From a virus, in IMG/VR virus record IMGVR_UViG_3300042525_000118, positions 1-31,181 of that record: 31,181 nt of DNA; one strand, 5' to 3'. This document shows positions 3,082 to 31,181 of this stretch, piece by piece. The notes below the pieces were generated by a model that was not told the origin of the DNA, made no database searches, and was given only the letters and a program-made list of their open reading frames with translations. The position numbers and the translations under genes are program-made. Position 1 is the stretch's first letter. The number at the start of each line of letters is the position of its first letter.

Positions 3082-3272
3082 GTCATTCTTCCTAGCGTGA
3101 TATTCTTCTGTGCTCGTATATCCATGTTTGCGTATGTCCAACATTCGCCCGTCGCATCTATGAACACAACCCAAAACAGATTATGCTCTGGGCCGTAATC
3201 AATAACCATATGTGCGACGCCTGCGCCTTTCGGCGTAACTACAGGCAACGGCGGATCCAGTTGAACAATCAT
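3078..3272 (-). CDS. Small conserved-type phage protein, 64 aa
   Basis: A 64-residue protein beginning MIVQLDPPLPVVTPKGAG. Its central part, VIDYGPEHNLFWVVFIDATGECW (residues 23-45), reads like a compact beta-sheet protein. Small proteins of this type, with a PPxPVxTPKG start, a DYGPEHxLxWVVF core and an IRAQKNIT C-terminus, recur in tailed phages from memory; no function is known to me. The start and stop both overlap neighbours as ATGA, which strongly supports expression within the operon. Confidence 0.8.
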   Translation of the reverse strand: MIVQLDPPLPVVTPKGAGVAHMVIDYGPEHNLFWVVFIDATGECWTYANMDIRAQKNITLGRMT

Positions 3273-3454
3273 ATTGCCCCGCCACAGCGCACTTTATCTT
3301 TTGCAAGTGCTAGTCTTGTTCGCGCTGCGCTTGGCGTAATGCTCAAGATCACAGCGATGTCTTTAACTCTAAAGCCCTTACGGAATAGATCATAGACCTG
3401 TTGTTCTTTGGGCGTTAGACGTGTTGCGTCATTCCAAACTTTACGTTCGGTCAT
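3269..3454 (-). CDS. Small helix-turn-helix protein (LuxR/sigma-region-4-like)
   Basis: A 61-residue protein made almost entirely of one DNA-binding motif: LTPKEQQVYDLFRKGFRVKD at about residues 13-32, followed by a recognition-helix region SITPSAARTRLALAKDKV. This is the LuxR/sigma70 region 4 type of helix-turn-helix. It lacks a sensor or sigma-2 domain, so it could be a phage transcription regulator or a DNA-binding accessory protein. It follows a GC-rich hairpin at 3481-3516 that may separate it partly from the 211-aa gene upstream, and its stop overlaps the next start as ATGA. It is the only obvious regulator-type protein in the window, and so a possible, unproven, ligand of the palindromes at 30.6 kb. 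Confidence 0.78.
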   Translation of the reverse strand: MTERKVWNDATRLTPKEQQVYDLFRKGFRVKDIAVILSITPSAARTRLALAKDKVRCGGAI

Positions 3455-19109: not shown

Positions 19110-20306
19110 TTAGCCCCAAAGGCGAACGGCCATCTGCGGACGAATCACGCTGTAGCCATAGAGCACGTCAATACGGCAAGGCAGACGGTCGTTGTTGATG
19201 TCATACTGACGAACAACGCGTAAGCTGATGCCATTGTGAACCTGACGGCTTGCCATATCGACACCCTGCGGAAGCAGAAGATCGGCGGTAGCGAAGCTGA
19301 TCGCGTCACGGTGATAGATCAAGTTCTGTGGATACTGCGTAGAAGCAGCGCCGAGGAACGTGACAGCCGCGCCGGAAACCGGCAGAGCGTCAACCGTAGC
19401 AAGAGCCTGAGAAGCCGAATACATCGCAGGAACAGTGACCGTAGCGGTCGTTGACGCCGTAACGTCAGCAAGAGCCACGAACTGATAGAGCGAGCCGGTT
19501 GACTCACGGGTCTGTGGGTTAACAGCGTAGACGCTACCAATGGTGAACACGTCGCCAGCTTTGATCGTCGTTGAGCCGAGGCCCGTCAGAACGATGCTGG
19601 TTGAGCCTTCAGCGGTAACGGTCGTGCTAACCGTAACGGTGCCAGCGCGCGAGCCCGTCGTGAACTGCTTGATTGACTGAGACATATTCAGCTCGTCGTA
19701 GCCGAGGATGCCTTCACCAAACATGCCGTTTTTGAACTGCTTGCTGATAGCTGACACAGGGTTGAAGAGGCCTTTCATGCCTTCGATCAATGCAGCGTTA
19801 GCGGCTGGATTGACGGTAGCATAGCGAGGCGACATAACCGCAGCGTTCTCGTTGAGCTTTTGTTGAGCTTGCAACAAGACCAGCGACGTAGCAGGCGTGG
19901 TGCCTGGGGTGCCGACTGAGTTGCCGATGTATTTGAAGCTGTTCGCAACGTCTGCGTCGATAGAAGACGCAAGCTGCGAAATACGAGGCTTCAGAACACG
20001 TTCAGCGAAGTCGTCCAACTGCATCGTCAGTTCGGCAGTCGTGAAGTTCACGCCGATGTGCTTCTGGCTGGAGACAGTGAGCGTGGTGTATTGCTCGTTG
20101 TCGTCCTGAACCTGAAGGGCAGCGCCATCCGTAACCAATGCGCGGTCAGGAAGACGGATGCGGAGGGTCGAGCCGATCTTAGCGCCTTCTACAGCGAAAG
20201 AGTCGTCATACTGACGGTTTACAGTGCGGGTGAGGACAAGACTATTCTCAAGGATCTCAAGAGCCTTGCGAGTAATCATGTCGATTGTTAAAATCGAGTT
20301 AGACAT
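19110..20306 (-). CDS. Major capsid (coat) protein, P22 gp5-like
   Basis: A 398-residue coat subunit. The N-terminus (MSNSILTIDMITRKALEILE, then NSLVLTRTVNRQYDDSFA) and the following KIGSTLRIRLPDRALVTDGA segment are characteristic of the P22 gene 5 coat family with the HK97 fold; HIGVNFTTAELTMQLDDFAE and the later FNPVSAISKQFKNGMFGEG and GYDELNMSQSIKQFTTGSR support this. Length is close to P22 coat (430). The inserted beta domain (about residues 220-300) is Thr/Ser-rich, as in that family. It directly follows the scaffold gene (eight-base spacing), and a hairpin follows. Confidence 0.94.
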   Translation of the reverse strand: MSNSILTIDMITRKALEILENSLVLTRTVNRQYDDSFAVEGAKIGSTLRIRLPDRALVTDGAALQVQDDNEQYTTLTVSSQKHIGVNFTTAELTMQLDDFAERVLKPRISQLASSIDADVANSFKYIGNSVGTPGTTPATSLVLLQAQQKLNENAAVMSPRYATVNPAANAALIEGMKGLFNPVSAISKQFKNGMFGEGILGYDELNMSQSIKQFTTGSRAGTVTVSTTVTAEGSTSIVLTGLGSTTIKAGDVFTIGSVYAVNPQTRESTGSLYQFVALADVTASTTATVTVPAMYSASQALATVDALPVSGAAVTFLGAASTQYPQNLIYHRDAISFATADLLLPQGVDMASRQVHNGISLRVVRQYDINNDRLPCRIDVLYGYSVIRPQMAVRLWG

Positions 20307-20313
20307 GATTTAA

Positions 20314-21093
20314 TTACCTACGGTTTTGCGCTTCCCACTTCTTGATCTGTCGCAACCGTTCGGCTTCAATCCATTCTGACGTTGACATCGACTTTGTAGA
20401 CCGTGGGTCTGTCGTATCAAATCTAGGGCCGGAGCTTGACCGAGTAGCCGTGACAGGAGCAAGAGGAGCTGGCGCAGTTGAAGTGCGTTTTGTCGGCGGA
20501 TCCGCGACCAGTTTGGCCTCGATTCTACCGATCTCCATTGCCTGCAAAATCGGCGGCAAATTGGCGATCCGTTGGGCTTCTTTAGGATTAGACCCTAAGT
20601 GATAGATCACTTCGGGGCCAATGCTAGAAGCCTGGATAGCTTGAGCCATATCGTTCGTTACGGGGAGGTTCGGATTATACGCGACTTGTTCAAAGTCATC
20701 GTATCTATCTCGCGCTTCCTCTTCACGGTCTTTATACGACTCAAGTAGAGCTGCCTGTTGTTTTGCGGCCTCTCGTCGTGCCAGTAGCTCTTGAGCTTTT
20801 TGCTCGGCCAGTGCTTCCGCATAGGCTTGAGCGTTCTCAAAATCATCTGGCGCTGGGGGAGGTGCGACGGGCTGTCTAGCCTGTTGCTCCGCAAGCAACT
20901 GTGCTTGCTCTCTTTCCCATTTGCGCTGTTCTCTTGCGAGGCGTTTGCCTACAATAGCGTCCAACTCTTCTTGAGAGAACGATTTCGTAGACTGTTGTTC
21001 CTCCGGCGTCGTCTCAACAGATTCAGGTGCCGCCGTGGCTTCCTGTTCCGGCGCGGGGCTGATCTCCGCTACAGCCTGTTCTTCGTCGCTCAA
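20314..21093 (-). CDS. Scaffolding protein
   Basis: A 259-residue highly charged, helical protein: acidic Pro/Glu/Ala-rich start (residues 1-35), then SFSQEELDAIVGKRLAREQR and a long coiled-coil region to about residue 120, and a basic C-terminus (DQIKKWEAQNRR-like). This is the composition of phage scaffolds that guide coat assembly and leave before packaging. The start codon is TTG at 21093 with AAGGAAG five bases upstream; no ATG is available before the acidic segment. It immediately precedes the coat gene as in P22. Confidence 0.86.
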   Translation of the reverse strand: MSDEEQAVAEISPAPEQEATAAPESVETTPEEQQSTKSFSQEELDAIVGKRLAREQRKWEREQAQLLAEQQARQPVAPPPAPDDFENAQAYAEALAEQKAQELLARREAAKQQAALLESYKDREEEARDRYDDFEQVAYNPNLPVTNDMAQAIQASSIGPEVIYHLGSNPKEAQRIANLPPILQAMEIGRIEAKLVADPPTKRTSTAPAPLAPVTATRSSSGPRFDTTDPRSTKSMSTSEWIEAERLRQIKKWEAQNRR

Positions 21094-28304: not shown

Positions 28305-28545
28305 AGTTCCACCTCTTCATAGATGCTTTAGCGCGGTCTGCGTTCTTAGACTTAGCGACTACGCCGCCCATTCGGGCGCAAAAACTAGCCTTGCGGCCCT
28401 TGTCAGCGTCTGTCTTAGGGTTCGGCGCAGGTGCCTTTAACTTGCTGCCAGTCGCCTTGTTGTATTTGGCGCGGCCTTTGGCTGTTAGTCCAGCGCCCGC
28501 TTTCGTCGATAGCTTCTCGCCACGACCAACAGATAATGATACCAT
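28294..28545 (-). CDS. Small basic DUF6321-like protein, 83 aa
   Basis: An 83-residue Lys/Arg-rich protein with the segments GEKLSTKAGAGLTAKGRAKY and KAPAPNPKTDADKGRKASFC, followed by ARMGGV and a C-terminal [10 protein letters not shown]. The pattern matches the DUF6321 family of phage proteins as I recall it. I chose the ATG at 28545 because it overlaps the terL stop (TAATG), like its downstream neighbours; an ATG at 28560 (88 aa) inside terL is also possible. Two Cys are present, too few for a zinc ribbon. Function unknown. Confidence 0.78.
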   Translation of the reverse strand: MVSLSVGRGEKLSTKAGAGLTAKGRAKYNKATGSKLKAPAPNPKTDADKGRKASFCARMGGVVAKSKNADRAKASMKRWNCGK

Positions 28546-30071
28546 TAACTTGCCATCCAACCAGACGATGCGGAGCCTTGACCATAACTGACCCGACGTG
28601 TGTTGTCTACACGCTGTTCACGTCTGGCGACAGGAAATGCGAAGGTTATTGCGATGGCGTCCGCCGCGTCGGGCGACGCCAGACCTCTGCTTTTCATGTC
28701 CTTCTTAGACTCTAAGAAGATCGTTCCCTTAGAGTCCGGCTTCATCATCGGCCCGATGAGGTCTGACTTCAGATACCGATCCTTTGGTATGCTCGCGTCT
28801 TTCAGCCAGTCCTTCATCGCGCCCCACATCTCCGCGCGCTTGTTCCCATACATCATAGGCTTCGTGCTCTTATTGCCGAAGTTCACCCCGCGCACCTTGT
28901 AGCGCTGTTCCTTCAGCCGATCCACCACGCCCGCGCCTAGTCCGCCTTCGTCGATAACCACTAAGGCTGGCTTGAACTCTTCGATCACGTCGATCACCCG
29001 CCCAACGACCTCCATCGTGTCGTCGCCCCTGTAGCGCTTTATGCCTATGACGTCTCTGCCCTGTCGTATGGCTATAACGGTGGCGTCGGCACCAAAGCGT
29101 GCCGGATCCACTCCGACCACGATGGGGGCGGACTGGTCGGCGTGAGCTGCACGTTCCATTGCCTCGTCAACCAGCGCGTTTCCGATGAACTGGTCGTCGC
29201 TTGCGTTCGGGAACTGACCGTAGACTTCGACGTGTGCGGCGCTGGAGTCTGGCCCATACTCGTCAATGATCTGCTGGTAGACGGCTTTATCCGTCCCTTC
29301 GACAGATCTGGCATCGACAATCTTATTTCGCCAGAAGTCGCGCTTGGAGTTAAAACACTCATAAAAGTAACCAGAGTTACGACGGGGGTTGCTGAAGCAC
29401 AACCAAAAGCGATTAGGGGTATTTTCCGTAAAAAAGCCCGCTGCAACTGACCAGATAGAATCATCAATTCCGCTTGCCTCATCGAATACCAGCATGACAC
29501 CCGCGAAGTTGTGCACGCCAGCATATGCGTCAGGATTCTCCGCACTCCACAACCGCCCTTCTACGCCCCAATAGCGCGTTCCCATCTTCAGATCACGTTC
29601 GACCAGTTCCGCTATCCACTTGGCCGGTAGCACCCGCGTCGCGGATACCTCGAACCAATGCGTGTGGATCGCCATACTCAACCACTTCGTTATCTCAGCC
29701 CAGGTGACGCTGCGGAGCTGCGCTTCCGAGTTAGCCGACACGATGGTCGTCGATCCAATCCGTGTGGTCAGCATCCAGATCGTCAGCCAGCTTACGAGGG
29801 CAGACTTACCGATACCGCGTCCTGAACTGACCGCCAGCCGTAGCGTCTCGAAGTCTATCTTACCGTTGTTCGCGTGGATGTGATCGCGCAGTTCGACCAA
29901 CACCTCGCGCTGCCATTTGCGCGGGCCTTCGAAGTGCTCAAGTGGCGTATTCGGCTTCCCCCACGGAAAGGCTAGTCTCACGAAGGCCAGCGGGTCGTTC
30001 TTCAGCGCGGGGTTCCACAGCGTCGCCATTAAGCGCTGTTCTTCCTCCGGCGAATATACCGTCGTTTGCAT
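28545..30071 (-). CDS. terL: Terminase large subunit
   Basis: A 508-residue packaging motor. The ATPase domain has Walker A SSGRGIGKS (residues 82-90, K89) and Walker B VMLVFDE (192-198, D197-E198), with the coupling motif around SNPRRNSG. The RNase H-like nuclease domain has VGVDPARFGADA (D322), VVIDEGGLGAG (D374) and a third acidic site in SPDAADA (D468/D471). All are intact. It hydrolyses ATP to drive DNA into the capsid and cuts concatemers. The ATG lies 134 bases inside terS in another frame. Transcribed with terS, the tiny basic genes and portal. Confidence 0.96.
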   Translation of the reverse strand: MQTTVYSPEEEQRLMATLWNPALKNDPLAFVRLAFPWGKPNTPLEHFEGPRKWQREVLVELRDHIHANNGKIDFETLRLAVSSGRGIGKSALVSWLTIWMLTTRIGSTTIVSANSEAQLRSVTWAEITKWLSMAIHTHWFEVSATRVLPAKWIAELVERDLKMGTRYWGVEGRLWSAENPDAYAGVHNFAGVMLVFDEASGIDDSIWSVAAGFFTENTPNRFWLCFSNPRRNSGYFYECFNSKRDFWRNKIVDARSVEGTDKAVYQQIIDEYGPDSSAAHVEVYGQFPNASDDQFIGNALVDEAMERAAHADQSAPIVVGVDPARFGADATVIAIRQGRDVIGIKRYRGDDTMEVVGRVIDVIEEFKPALVVIDEGGLGAGVVDRLKEQRYKVRGVNFGNKSTKPMMYGNKRAEMWGAMKDWLKDASIPKDRYLKSDLIGPMMKPDSKGTIFLESKKDMKSRGLASPDAADAIAITFAFPVARREQRVDNTRRVSYGQGSASSGWMAS

Positions 30072-30465
30072 CTATGATCTGCCCTTCGATGACTCGTTGC
30101 TGCGCTTCTTGCAGCGCCGCCGTAATAGATATGGTCTGGTTCACTTCTACGCTGACGGCCTGCTTGGCGACCCAACCATGCGCGTGCTTCAGCATTTCAA
30201 GCGCTGCTTTGCTATCGCCCGCTAACGCCGCCGTGCGGAGCACCGCAGCCATCTCCGCCTCGCCTTCAGCGCGGCCCTTGTATTCGGCATACTCAGCTAT
30301 CGGGTCAAGCTGTATCAACCGCCGATACTCTTGTGGCGTCATCCCCGCTGCATACGCCAGTGCGTCGCCCTTCAAGCCTTTGCGCGCGGCGTCGTAAATC
30401 AGTTCGAGATTTTTTTCTGTGGCCTCTATTGTTCGAGGCTCGTAGGGCAGAGACTGGAATGTCAT
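29938..30465 (-). CDS. terS: Terminase small subunit (putative)
   Basis: A 175-residue protein: helical N-terminus with a helix-turn-helix-like segment (AARKGLKGDALAYAAGMTPQ then EYRRLIQLDP), a central coiled-coil-like helix with AGDSKAALEMLKHAHGWVAK, and a polar C-terminal tail. This fits small terminases that bind the packaging site and form rings. The position immediately before terL is the best support. The last 44 residues overlap terL in another frame. The start ATG at 30465 is preceded by GGGG at 30469-30472 and lies seven bases after a possible -10 box, so transcription could begin nearly at the start codon. Confidence 0.85.
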   Translation of the reverse strand: MTFQSLPYEPRTIEATEKNLELIYDAARKGLKGDALAYAAGMTPQEYRRLIQLDPIAEYAEYKGRAEGEAEMAAVLRTAALAGDSKAALEMLKHAHGWVAKQAVSVEVNQTISITAALQEAQQRVIEGQIIDANDGIFAGGRTALNGDAVEPRAEERPAGLRETSLSVGEAEYAT

Positions 30466-30472
30466 AGCCCCA

Positions 30473-30501
30473 GATATACGTCAAAAGATGTTTGATGACA
30501 A
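30473..30501 (-). promoter_or_regulatory. Possible promoter for terS/late operon
   Basis: On the minus strand TTGTCA (30496-30501) and TATATC (30473-30478) are separated by 17 bp. Five of six and four of six positions match the sigma70 consensus. Transcription would start at about 30466, giving an almost leaderless terS message, which is a reason for caution. A weaker pair (TTTACG-17-TAAAAA) sits upstream. Confidence 0.4.
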
Positions 30502-30545
30502 TTTTTAAAAATAAAAAAAGTTTGCGTAAAGCCTGTATAGATATT

Positions 30546-30572
30546 CCCGCCTTCCCCAAGGCCCAGCCCCCC
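30546..30572 (-). other. G-quadruplex-type motif
   Basis: On the minus strand this stretch has four G-tracts of 6, 3, 4 and 3 bases separated by loops of 2, 4 and 5 bases. It meets the usual G3+N1-7 rule. It lies between the palindrome array and the AT-rich run (30501-30520) upstream of terS. If transcribed leftward it would be in the RNA leader. Confidence 0.55.
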
Positions 30573-30647
30573 GGCTTCGAGCTGAATGTAAACACGAAGC
30601 TGATTGTAAACTTGTTTACATAAACACGGAGCTGAATGTAAACTTAA

Positions 30648-30676
30648 TGTTTACGTAAACATGTTTATGTAAACAA
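30648..30676. repeat. 29-bp direct repeat, copy 1 (two palindromes)
   Basis: Consists of a perfect palindrome (30649-30660) and the variant GTTTATGTAAAC (30663-30674) separated by AT, so the two centres are 14 bp apart. Identical to 30703-30731; the two copies are 55 bp apart, start to start. Confidence 0.95.
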
Positions 30677-30702
30677 GGCGCATGTTTATAATCATGTGGC
30701 TG

Positions 30703-30731
30703 TGTTTACGTAAACATGTTTATGTAAACAA
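30703..30731. repeat. 29-bp direct repeat, copy 2 (two palindromes)
   Basis: Second exact copy of the double-palindrome unit, with the palindrome at 30704-30715 and the variant at 30718-30729. The sequence between the copies contains TATAAA-like bases but no further palindrome of this class. Confidence 0.95.
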
Positions 30732-30892
30732 ATGTGTGGCAGATAACGTGCGCGCGCTTGCTGAATGTAAACGAACGCGAGCTTATTGATGTAAACGTGT
30801 TTACGTAAACAAAGCGGTGCGCGCTTACTGAATGTAAACTAAAGATCGCTTGGCGGCGCGCACGGCGCGCGCTCGCCTGTTAGCGTGCTCGT

Positions 30893-31115: not shown

Positions 31116-31127
31116 GTTTACGTAAAC
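31116..31127. promoter_or_regulatory. Isolated GTTTACGTAAAC palindrome upstream of the strong promoter
   Basis: A perfect copy of the 12-bp palindrome of the array, about 280 bp from the nearest other site and about 31 bp upstream of the -35 box. Position suits an activator or a looping operator rather than a direct blocker. Confidence 0.7.
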
Positions 31128-31153
31128 ATTGACGGCGCGCGCGTAATATGTTA

Positions 31154-31173
31154 CTGCGTCATTACTGACGCAG
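31154..31173. other. Perfect inverted repeat near the right edge
   Basis: CTGCGTCA and TGACGCAG form an 8-bp perfect stem with a four-base loop. No U-run on either side, so it is more likely an operator or the foot of a structure shared with sequence beyond the window than a terminator. Confidence 0.5.
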
Positions 31174-31181
31174 CGAGGGAA

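Follow-up and report, generated by a model that had tools for sequence, protein, structure and literature searches.

In the satellite phage P4, the alpha primase-helicase binds ori and crr, and one motif occurs in both. Repeated terminase sites are found in phage P1, whose pac carries hexanucleotide repeats, and in lambda, as the R sites of cosB. The stoperators of mycobacteriophage L5 are asymmetric sites of fixed direction that are spread across the genome and serve as binding sites of a temperate-phage repressor, and the iterons of mini-F are 19 bp long. A single mini-F initiator, RepE, acts as a monomer on the iterons and as a dimer on inverted repeats (PMC13028717).

The stretch of DNA analyzed here (the window) is a virus record of 31,181 bases, a freshwater fragment of a podovirus with a P22-type capsid. 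Toward its right end it carries an array of short sites (array A). As in mini-F oriS-incC (PMC13028717), one half-site motif occurs as both direct and inverted repeats, which form a cluster in the vicinity of an AT-rich segment. Unlike in mini-F, the sites are a 7-bp half site and 12-bp dyads, no RepE-like initiator was found among the genes examined, and the AT-rich island lies several hundred base pairs off, beside a second, different repeat. The locus resembles that of P4 in its short iterons, which vary in orientation and lie close to an AT-rich region, and in a fused primase-helicase, a likeness that is closer for the 9-bp repeats of the island than for array A; in contrast to P4, two arrays with different motifs are present. 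Short repeated sites at or near terS recall P1 pac and lambda cosB, but TerS does not appear to track the motif here. Asymmetric sites in a fixed direction are also a property of the L5 stoperators; however, the sites of the window are confined to one gap, with four heptamers outside it, and no integrase (PF00589) was detected in 13 related records, not all of which are complete. A CI-type repressor was likewise sought in these 13 records, and HTH_3 was matched in one (G008), which is without the array motif. The clustering of direct repeats of a single motif is a property that the array shares with iteron origins. We found no paper describing this motif.

Site content and setting of the array

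The genes of the window include those for a P22-type coat protein, a portal, a family-A DNA polymerase, a DUF2800 nuclease and an SNF2-type helicase. The terminase genes run leftward from 30465 on the minus strand and comprise a terS candidate (29938 to 30465, 175 amino acids) and terL (28545 to 30071, 508 amino acids). The array lies 120 to 370 bp upstream of the terS start. Between the two lie an A-run (30500 to 30519) and a noncoding block conserved in relatives (30520 to 30574, minus strand; GATATTCCC..CAAGGCCCAGCCCCCC), which contains a GCCTT-CCCC-AAGGC dyad (30549 to 30562) and may be a late promoter or a packaging site.

A motif scan of the array (30587 to 30839) identified six dyads of the GTTTACRTAAAC type and six isolated TGTAAAC half sites. 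Three of the dyads are perfect copies of GTTTACGTAAAC (30649 to 30660, 30704 to 30715 and 30799 to 30810), and three carry one change (GTTTACATAAAC at 30614 to 30625; GTTTATGTAAAC at 30663 to 30674 and at 30718 to 30729). The scan thus reproduced the three perfect and three near-perfect palindromes and the six half sites described by an earlier reading of the letters alone (the sequence-only reading), which had missed a fourth perfect dyad standing by itself to the right of the array (31116 to 31127). The near-perfect copies proved not to be random near misses, as in all three the change is confined to the central CG, which is replaced by TG or CA, while the arms are intact. Deamination at methylated CpG is a possible origin of the variants at 30614, 30663 and 30718. 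The relative MW202483 has an early cytosine methyltransferase gene.

The isolated half sites all lie on the plus strand, at 30587 to 30593 (in the context CTGAATGTAAAC), 30605 to 30611, 30637 to 30643, 30766 to 30772, 30790 to 30796 and, finally, 30833 to 30839. Three dyads contain the heptamer as well, at 30668 and 30723 on the plus strand and at 30614 on the minus strand. Two pairs of dyads are set at a 14-bp step (30649 and 30663; 30704 and 30718), and two half sites, those at 30605 and 30790, end 2 bp ahead of the dyads at 30614 and 30799. Alignment revealed in addition a decayed reverse half site, GTTTATA (30684 to 30690, minus strand), which reads GTTTACA in L084, L088 and others.

Among 2,000 order-1 Markov sequences, built from the array itself, the maximum was one dyad and two heptamers, compared to six and eight observed in 260 bp. 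The clustering of sites is real and not a product of chance. Elsewhere in the window, the dyad at 31116 is the only one with zero or one mismatch, and the four heptamers in the remainder of the 31 kb are about at chance level for the whole window. Only short, unsupported open reading frames cover the array, in agreement with the sequence-only reading, which had seen no credible gene there. Matches to a sigma-70 promoter were no commoner in the array than in shuffles, no Rfam match to a known RNA was obtained for it, and no plasmid relatives of it were found.

The end of the record at 31181 cuts through a hairpin, whose left part (31168 to 31181, plus strand) was recognized by comparison with L084, where the complete hairpin spans 2262 to 2296; folding of L084 2238 to 2300 gave −26 kcal/mol (z, −3.9). 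By these features, the hairpin cut at 31181 looks like a rightward intrinsic terminator. The terminator-like hairpin (ACGCAGCgAGGGAATTCCCTgGCTGCGTTTTT) is preceded by an overlapping hairpin (CTGCGTCAttacTGACGCAG) (window 31140 to 31181; L084 2240 to 2300).

Conservation of the array and the AT-rich island of relatives

The array is shared by relatives at the same position relative to terS. More than 20 related contigs carry the same element in the gap from which the terS-terL operon runs leftward and an early operon rightward. The nearest relatives have six to nine dyads (the solitary dyad counted), MW202483 (Manatee Spring) has the array as well, and the 12 IMG/VR contigs in which the pattern GTTTAYGTAAACRTGTTTAYGTAAAC was found all belong to this phage group. 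The solitary dyad is present in every array-rich relative that reaches it (L081, L082, L084, L085, L088, L090, L091 and L094). Farther relatives have small or degenerate arrays (ATGTMAAC): those outside the array-rich clade whose terL is 80 to 97% identical have ATGTMAAC half sites with one or two dyads at this position, and the small arrays adjoin a conserved block containing CAAGGCCCAGnnCCCCC. In L138, which comes from a betaproteobacterial metagenome-assembled genome, this position is taken by an array built on another palindrome (GTTAGTGAGCACTCACTAAC). DSL-LC05 is a metagenome-assembled relative (PMC10611076) with a 65% identical terL; the array motif is absent from it, and the corresponding gap holds a dense repeat of its own (CCCAGTGGGTCAG). 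An HNH endonuclease gene that is absent from the window lies between terS and the array in L082 (5276 to 5722), L090 (1233 to 1679) and MW202483 (27644 to 28090).

In the relatives, TGTMAAC was about 34 times as dense in the 450 bp next to the conserved block as in the rest of the contigs, a count in which L091, with the same array, stands in for the window; the motif is confined and not scattered. Neither of the two outcomes that the sequence-only reading had named as speaking against it, absence from close relatives and random scatter of the motif, was thus observed. Sequence identity in an alignment of eight arrays was 96.8% at sites versus 85.5% outside, a comparison that is biased somewhat in favor of the sites because these are motif defined. 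The boundaries of large indels in this alignment fall at sites, which is what recombination between copies would produce. The single direction of the half sites noticed by the sequence-only reading holds in the window and its near relatives (93 versus 16, in sequences related by descent) but is reversed in L042 to L046.

Beyond the end of the window, the gene order was taken from L084, L082 and MW202483. The gap continues for several hundred base pairs to the right, past the window end, to an AT-rich island that has inverted 9-bp repeats at its sides, and the gap also includes an early promoter that is sigma-70-like. The rightward early operon that follows includes genes for a DUF6011 protein (L084 and MW202483) and a DnaA-domain-IV protein (PF08299; E, 5e-17). 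These are followed, on the opposite strand, by a primase-helicase (DUF5906, with a RepB_primase match just under the cutoff) and a polymerase; the replication genes found are those for PolA, the RepB-primase/DUF5906 protein and the DnaA-domain-IV protein. From this gene order it follows that the array parts late genes from early genes. Its earlier description as lying upstream of the terminase genes was right about the position, but the same gap also divides the two sets of genes, a fact hidden from the sequence-only reading by the end of the record at 31181.

The 9-bp repeat differs in nearly every phage (TTGGGTAGT in L084, TTGGTAGTG in MW202483, TTAGGGCAA in L002, TTGGTCATT in L006, TTTGGGTCA in L080 and TTTATGCAG in L044), and that of L137 (TTGTCCACA) is DnaA-box-like. 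Copies on either side of the island are inverted. Direct 9-bp repeats occupy 2400 to 2620 in L084 and have equivalents in L080, L079, L044, L031 and L137. Sites of the array A type (ATGTNNAC) also occur at the islands, with 24 matches on 15 of 44 nonredundant islands versus about 2.5 expected; this count leaves out one array-rich contig mis-anchored on its main array, and since the islands share ancestry, the enrichment does not stand for that many independent events. The array-rich clade itself has no obvious array-type site at its AT-rich island.

The sequence-only reading had proposed a replication origin, an idea that gains partial support: an origin is plausible for this neighborhood; however, the more origin-like feature is the island to the right of the array, outside the window. 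Judged by its composition and repeats, the AT-rich island with its inverted, rapidly turning-over 9-bp repeats is a better origin candidate than the array. An origin likely lies somewhere in this gap, and its core is probably not the array. Because the origin-like island is several hundred base pairs to the right, an accessory or control function is more likely for the array than that of a melting site. GC skew, suggested earlier as a check, did not point to this gap: the cumulative extremes of the complete relatives lie elsewhere, and the minimum of the window at 30572 is probably a fragment effect.

Candidate binding proteins and competing explanations

Our tentative interpretation, favored with less than firm confidence, is that the array is a cis-acting multi-site binding element of an origin/late-switch control region. 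It draws on the site content, the position, the conservation and the copy number variation of the array and on the fact that sites of its type reappear at the AT-rich island in relatives. The array would be a site cluster for one sequence-specific DNA-binding protein, most likely phage encoded, whose target would be TGTAAAC, alone as a half site or doubled as the GTTTAC-GTAAAC dyad; from the two forms of the site, we infer monomer and dimer binding modes. With the late (terS-terL) operon on one side and the candidate origin/early operon on the other, the array would load bound copies side by side, in 14-bp steps between paired dyads. The loaded array would then set the state of the region, through origin firing, switch-on of the leftward late operon, or both. 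Binding by a protein, its phage origin and this output are all suggested by the arrangement of sites and genes.

Two phage proteins that were considered as binders did not appear to track the array. The predicted helix-turn-helix region of TerS is kept while the array motif differs or is missing, and the recognition helix of the DnaA-domain-IV protein is unchanged across different arrays: RDH[ST]T is kept, except in L014 to L020 and L059, while both arrays change. Presence of the DnaA-domain-IV protein was uncorrelated with array A (Fisher P = 1) in a test that used a window of 600 bp, in which L082 and L094 were scored as lacking the array because the HNH gene pushes it outside this range, and in which the sample also held one array-rich contig anchored on its main array and not on the AT island; moving L082 and L094 to the array-bearing group gives no clear association. 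Early promoters of the array-rich clade carry exact DnaA boxes (TTATNCACA/TTGTNCACA) in a head-to-head arrangement, and the sequence context suggests early-promoter control as the role of the DnaA-domain-IV protein. The head-to-head TTATNCACA overlaps the −10 element of early sigma-70-like promoters (L084 2678 to 2695 and 3187 to 3204; equivalents in G021, G022 and G023), and phages with DnaA boxes on early promoters encode a stand-alone DnaA-domain-IV protein. Second DnaA-domain-IV genes, encoding longer proteins, are located near the replication operon in G006 (35580 to 36173), G008 (19956 to 20441) and G011 (29868 to 30554), and the protein of G011 has an extra HTH-like C terminus.

One candidate binder, named by association, is a stand-alone helix-turn-helix protein of 61 amino acids that resembles sigma-70 region 4 (Sigma70_r4_2; 3269 to 3454, minus strand). 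Its gene occurs in the window, in G002 and in each further array-rich genome that was tested (G021, G022, G023 and W01) and is absent from seven other records, an association with the large array that is drawn from few, related genomes. This distribution would also fit an explanation that we regard as doubtful, namely, that the array serves transcription control only, with no role in replication, as a multi-site operator or activator of the leftward late operon to which a small HTH protein from the replication operon binds, turning terS-terL and the downstream genes on or off. The distance of the array from the terS start is suitable for such control, and the half site, read toward terS, may be likened to TTTACA/TTGACA, the −35 type read by region 4. 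However, no −10 element is correctly spaced from the half sites, G003 and G004 have the motif and no Sigma70_r4_2 match, and this explanation leaves the array-type sites of the AT-rich island unaccounted for; as the HTH family follows the clade, the association may moreover reflect ancestry only.

Packaging had also been raised by the sequence-only reading, and repeated terminase sites such as those of P1 pac and lambda cosB, together with the proximity of the array to terS and to a strongly conserved noncoding block, speak for a part in a pac- or cosB-like packaging start bound by the small terminase ring. Covariation with TerS gave this idea no support, given the constancy of the predicted HTH region, and the conserved block separates the array from terS; we consider it unlikely. 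Recruitment or titration of a host regulator would account for a core heptamer that is common to many relatives while several phage proteins vary, but the different palindrome of L138 and the growth and shrinkage of arrays by lineage argue against it, as does the uncertain host, and it appears improbable. The least probable explanation is neutral repeat expansion or chance, or else a partition (centromere) site. Copy number does vary among close relatives, and the dyad resembles a shortened parS. The sites, however, are better conserved than the spacers and hold their position, and partition, another of the earlier suggestions, is unlikely with ParB_N (PF02195) matched in none of the 13 related records, several of them incomplete, and with no integrase found.

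Implications for this phage group

The tentatively favored origin/late-switch control element may be one of two arrays. According to this proposal, which is itself open to considerable doubt, array A beside the late operon and an array B of 9-bp repeats beside the early operon would be read by different, fast-evolving proteins. If this holds true, each phage would replicate and switch to late genes in a self-specific manner, similar to plasmid incompatibility groups. The start of replication and the late switch seem to be undescribed for environmental podoviruses with a P22-type capsid and this replication module, and the comparison singles out a compact segment of about 1 kb in L084 as a candidate for origin activity. 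With a conserved site and fast-changing repeat arrays, the dozens of sequenced relatives form a natural data set in which binding motifs could be matched to DNA-binding proteins of the phages.
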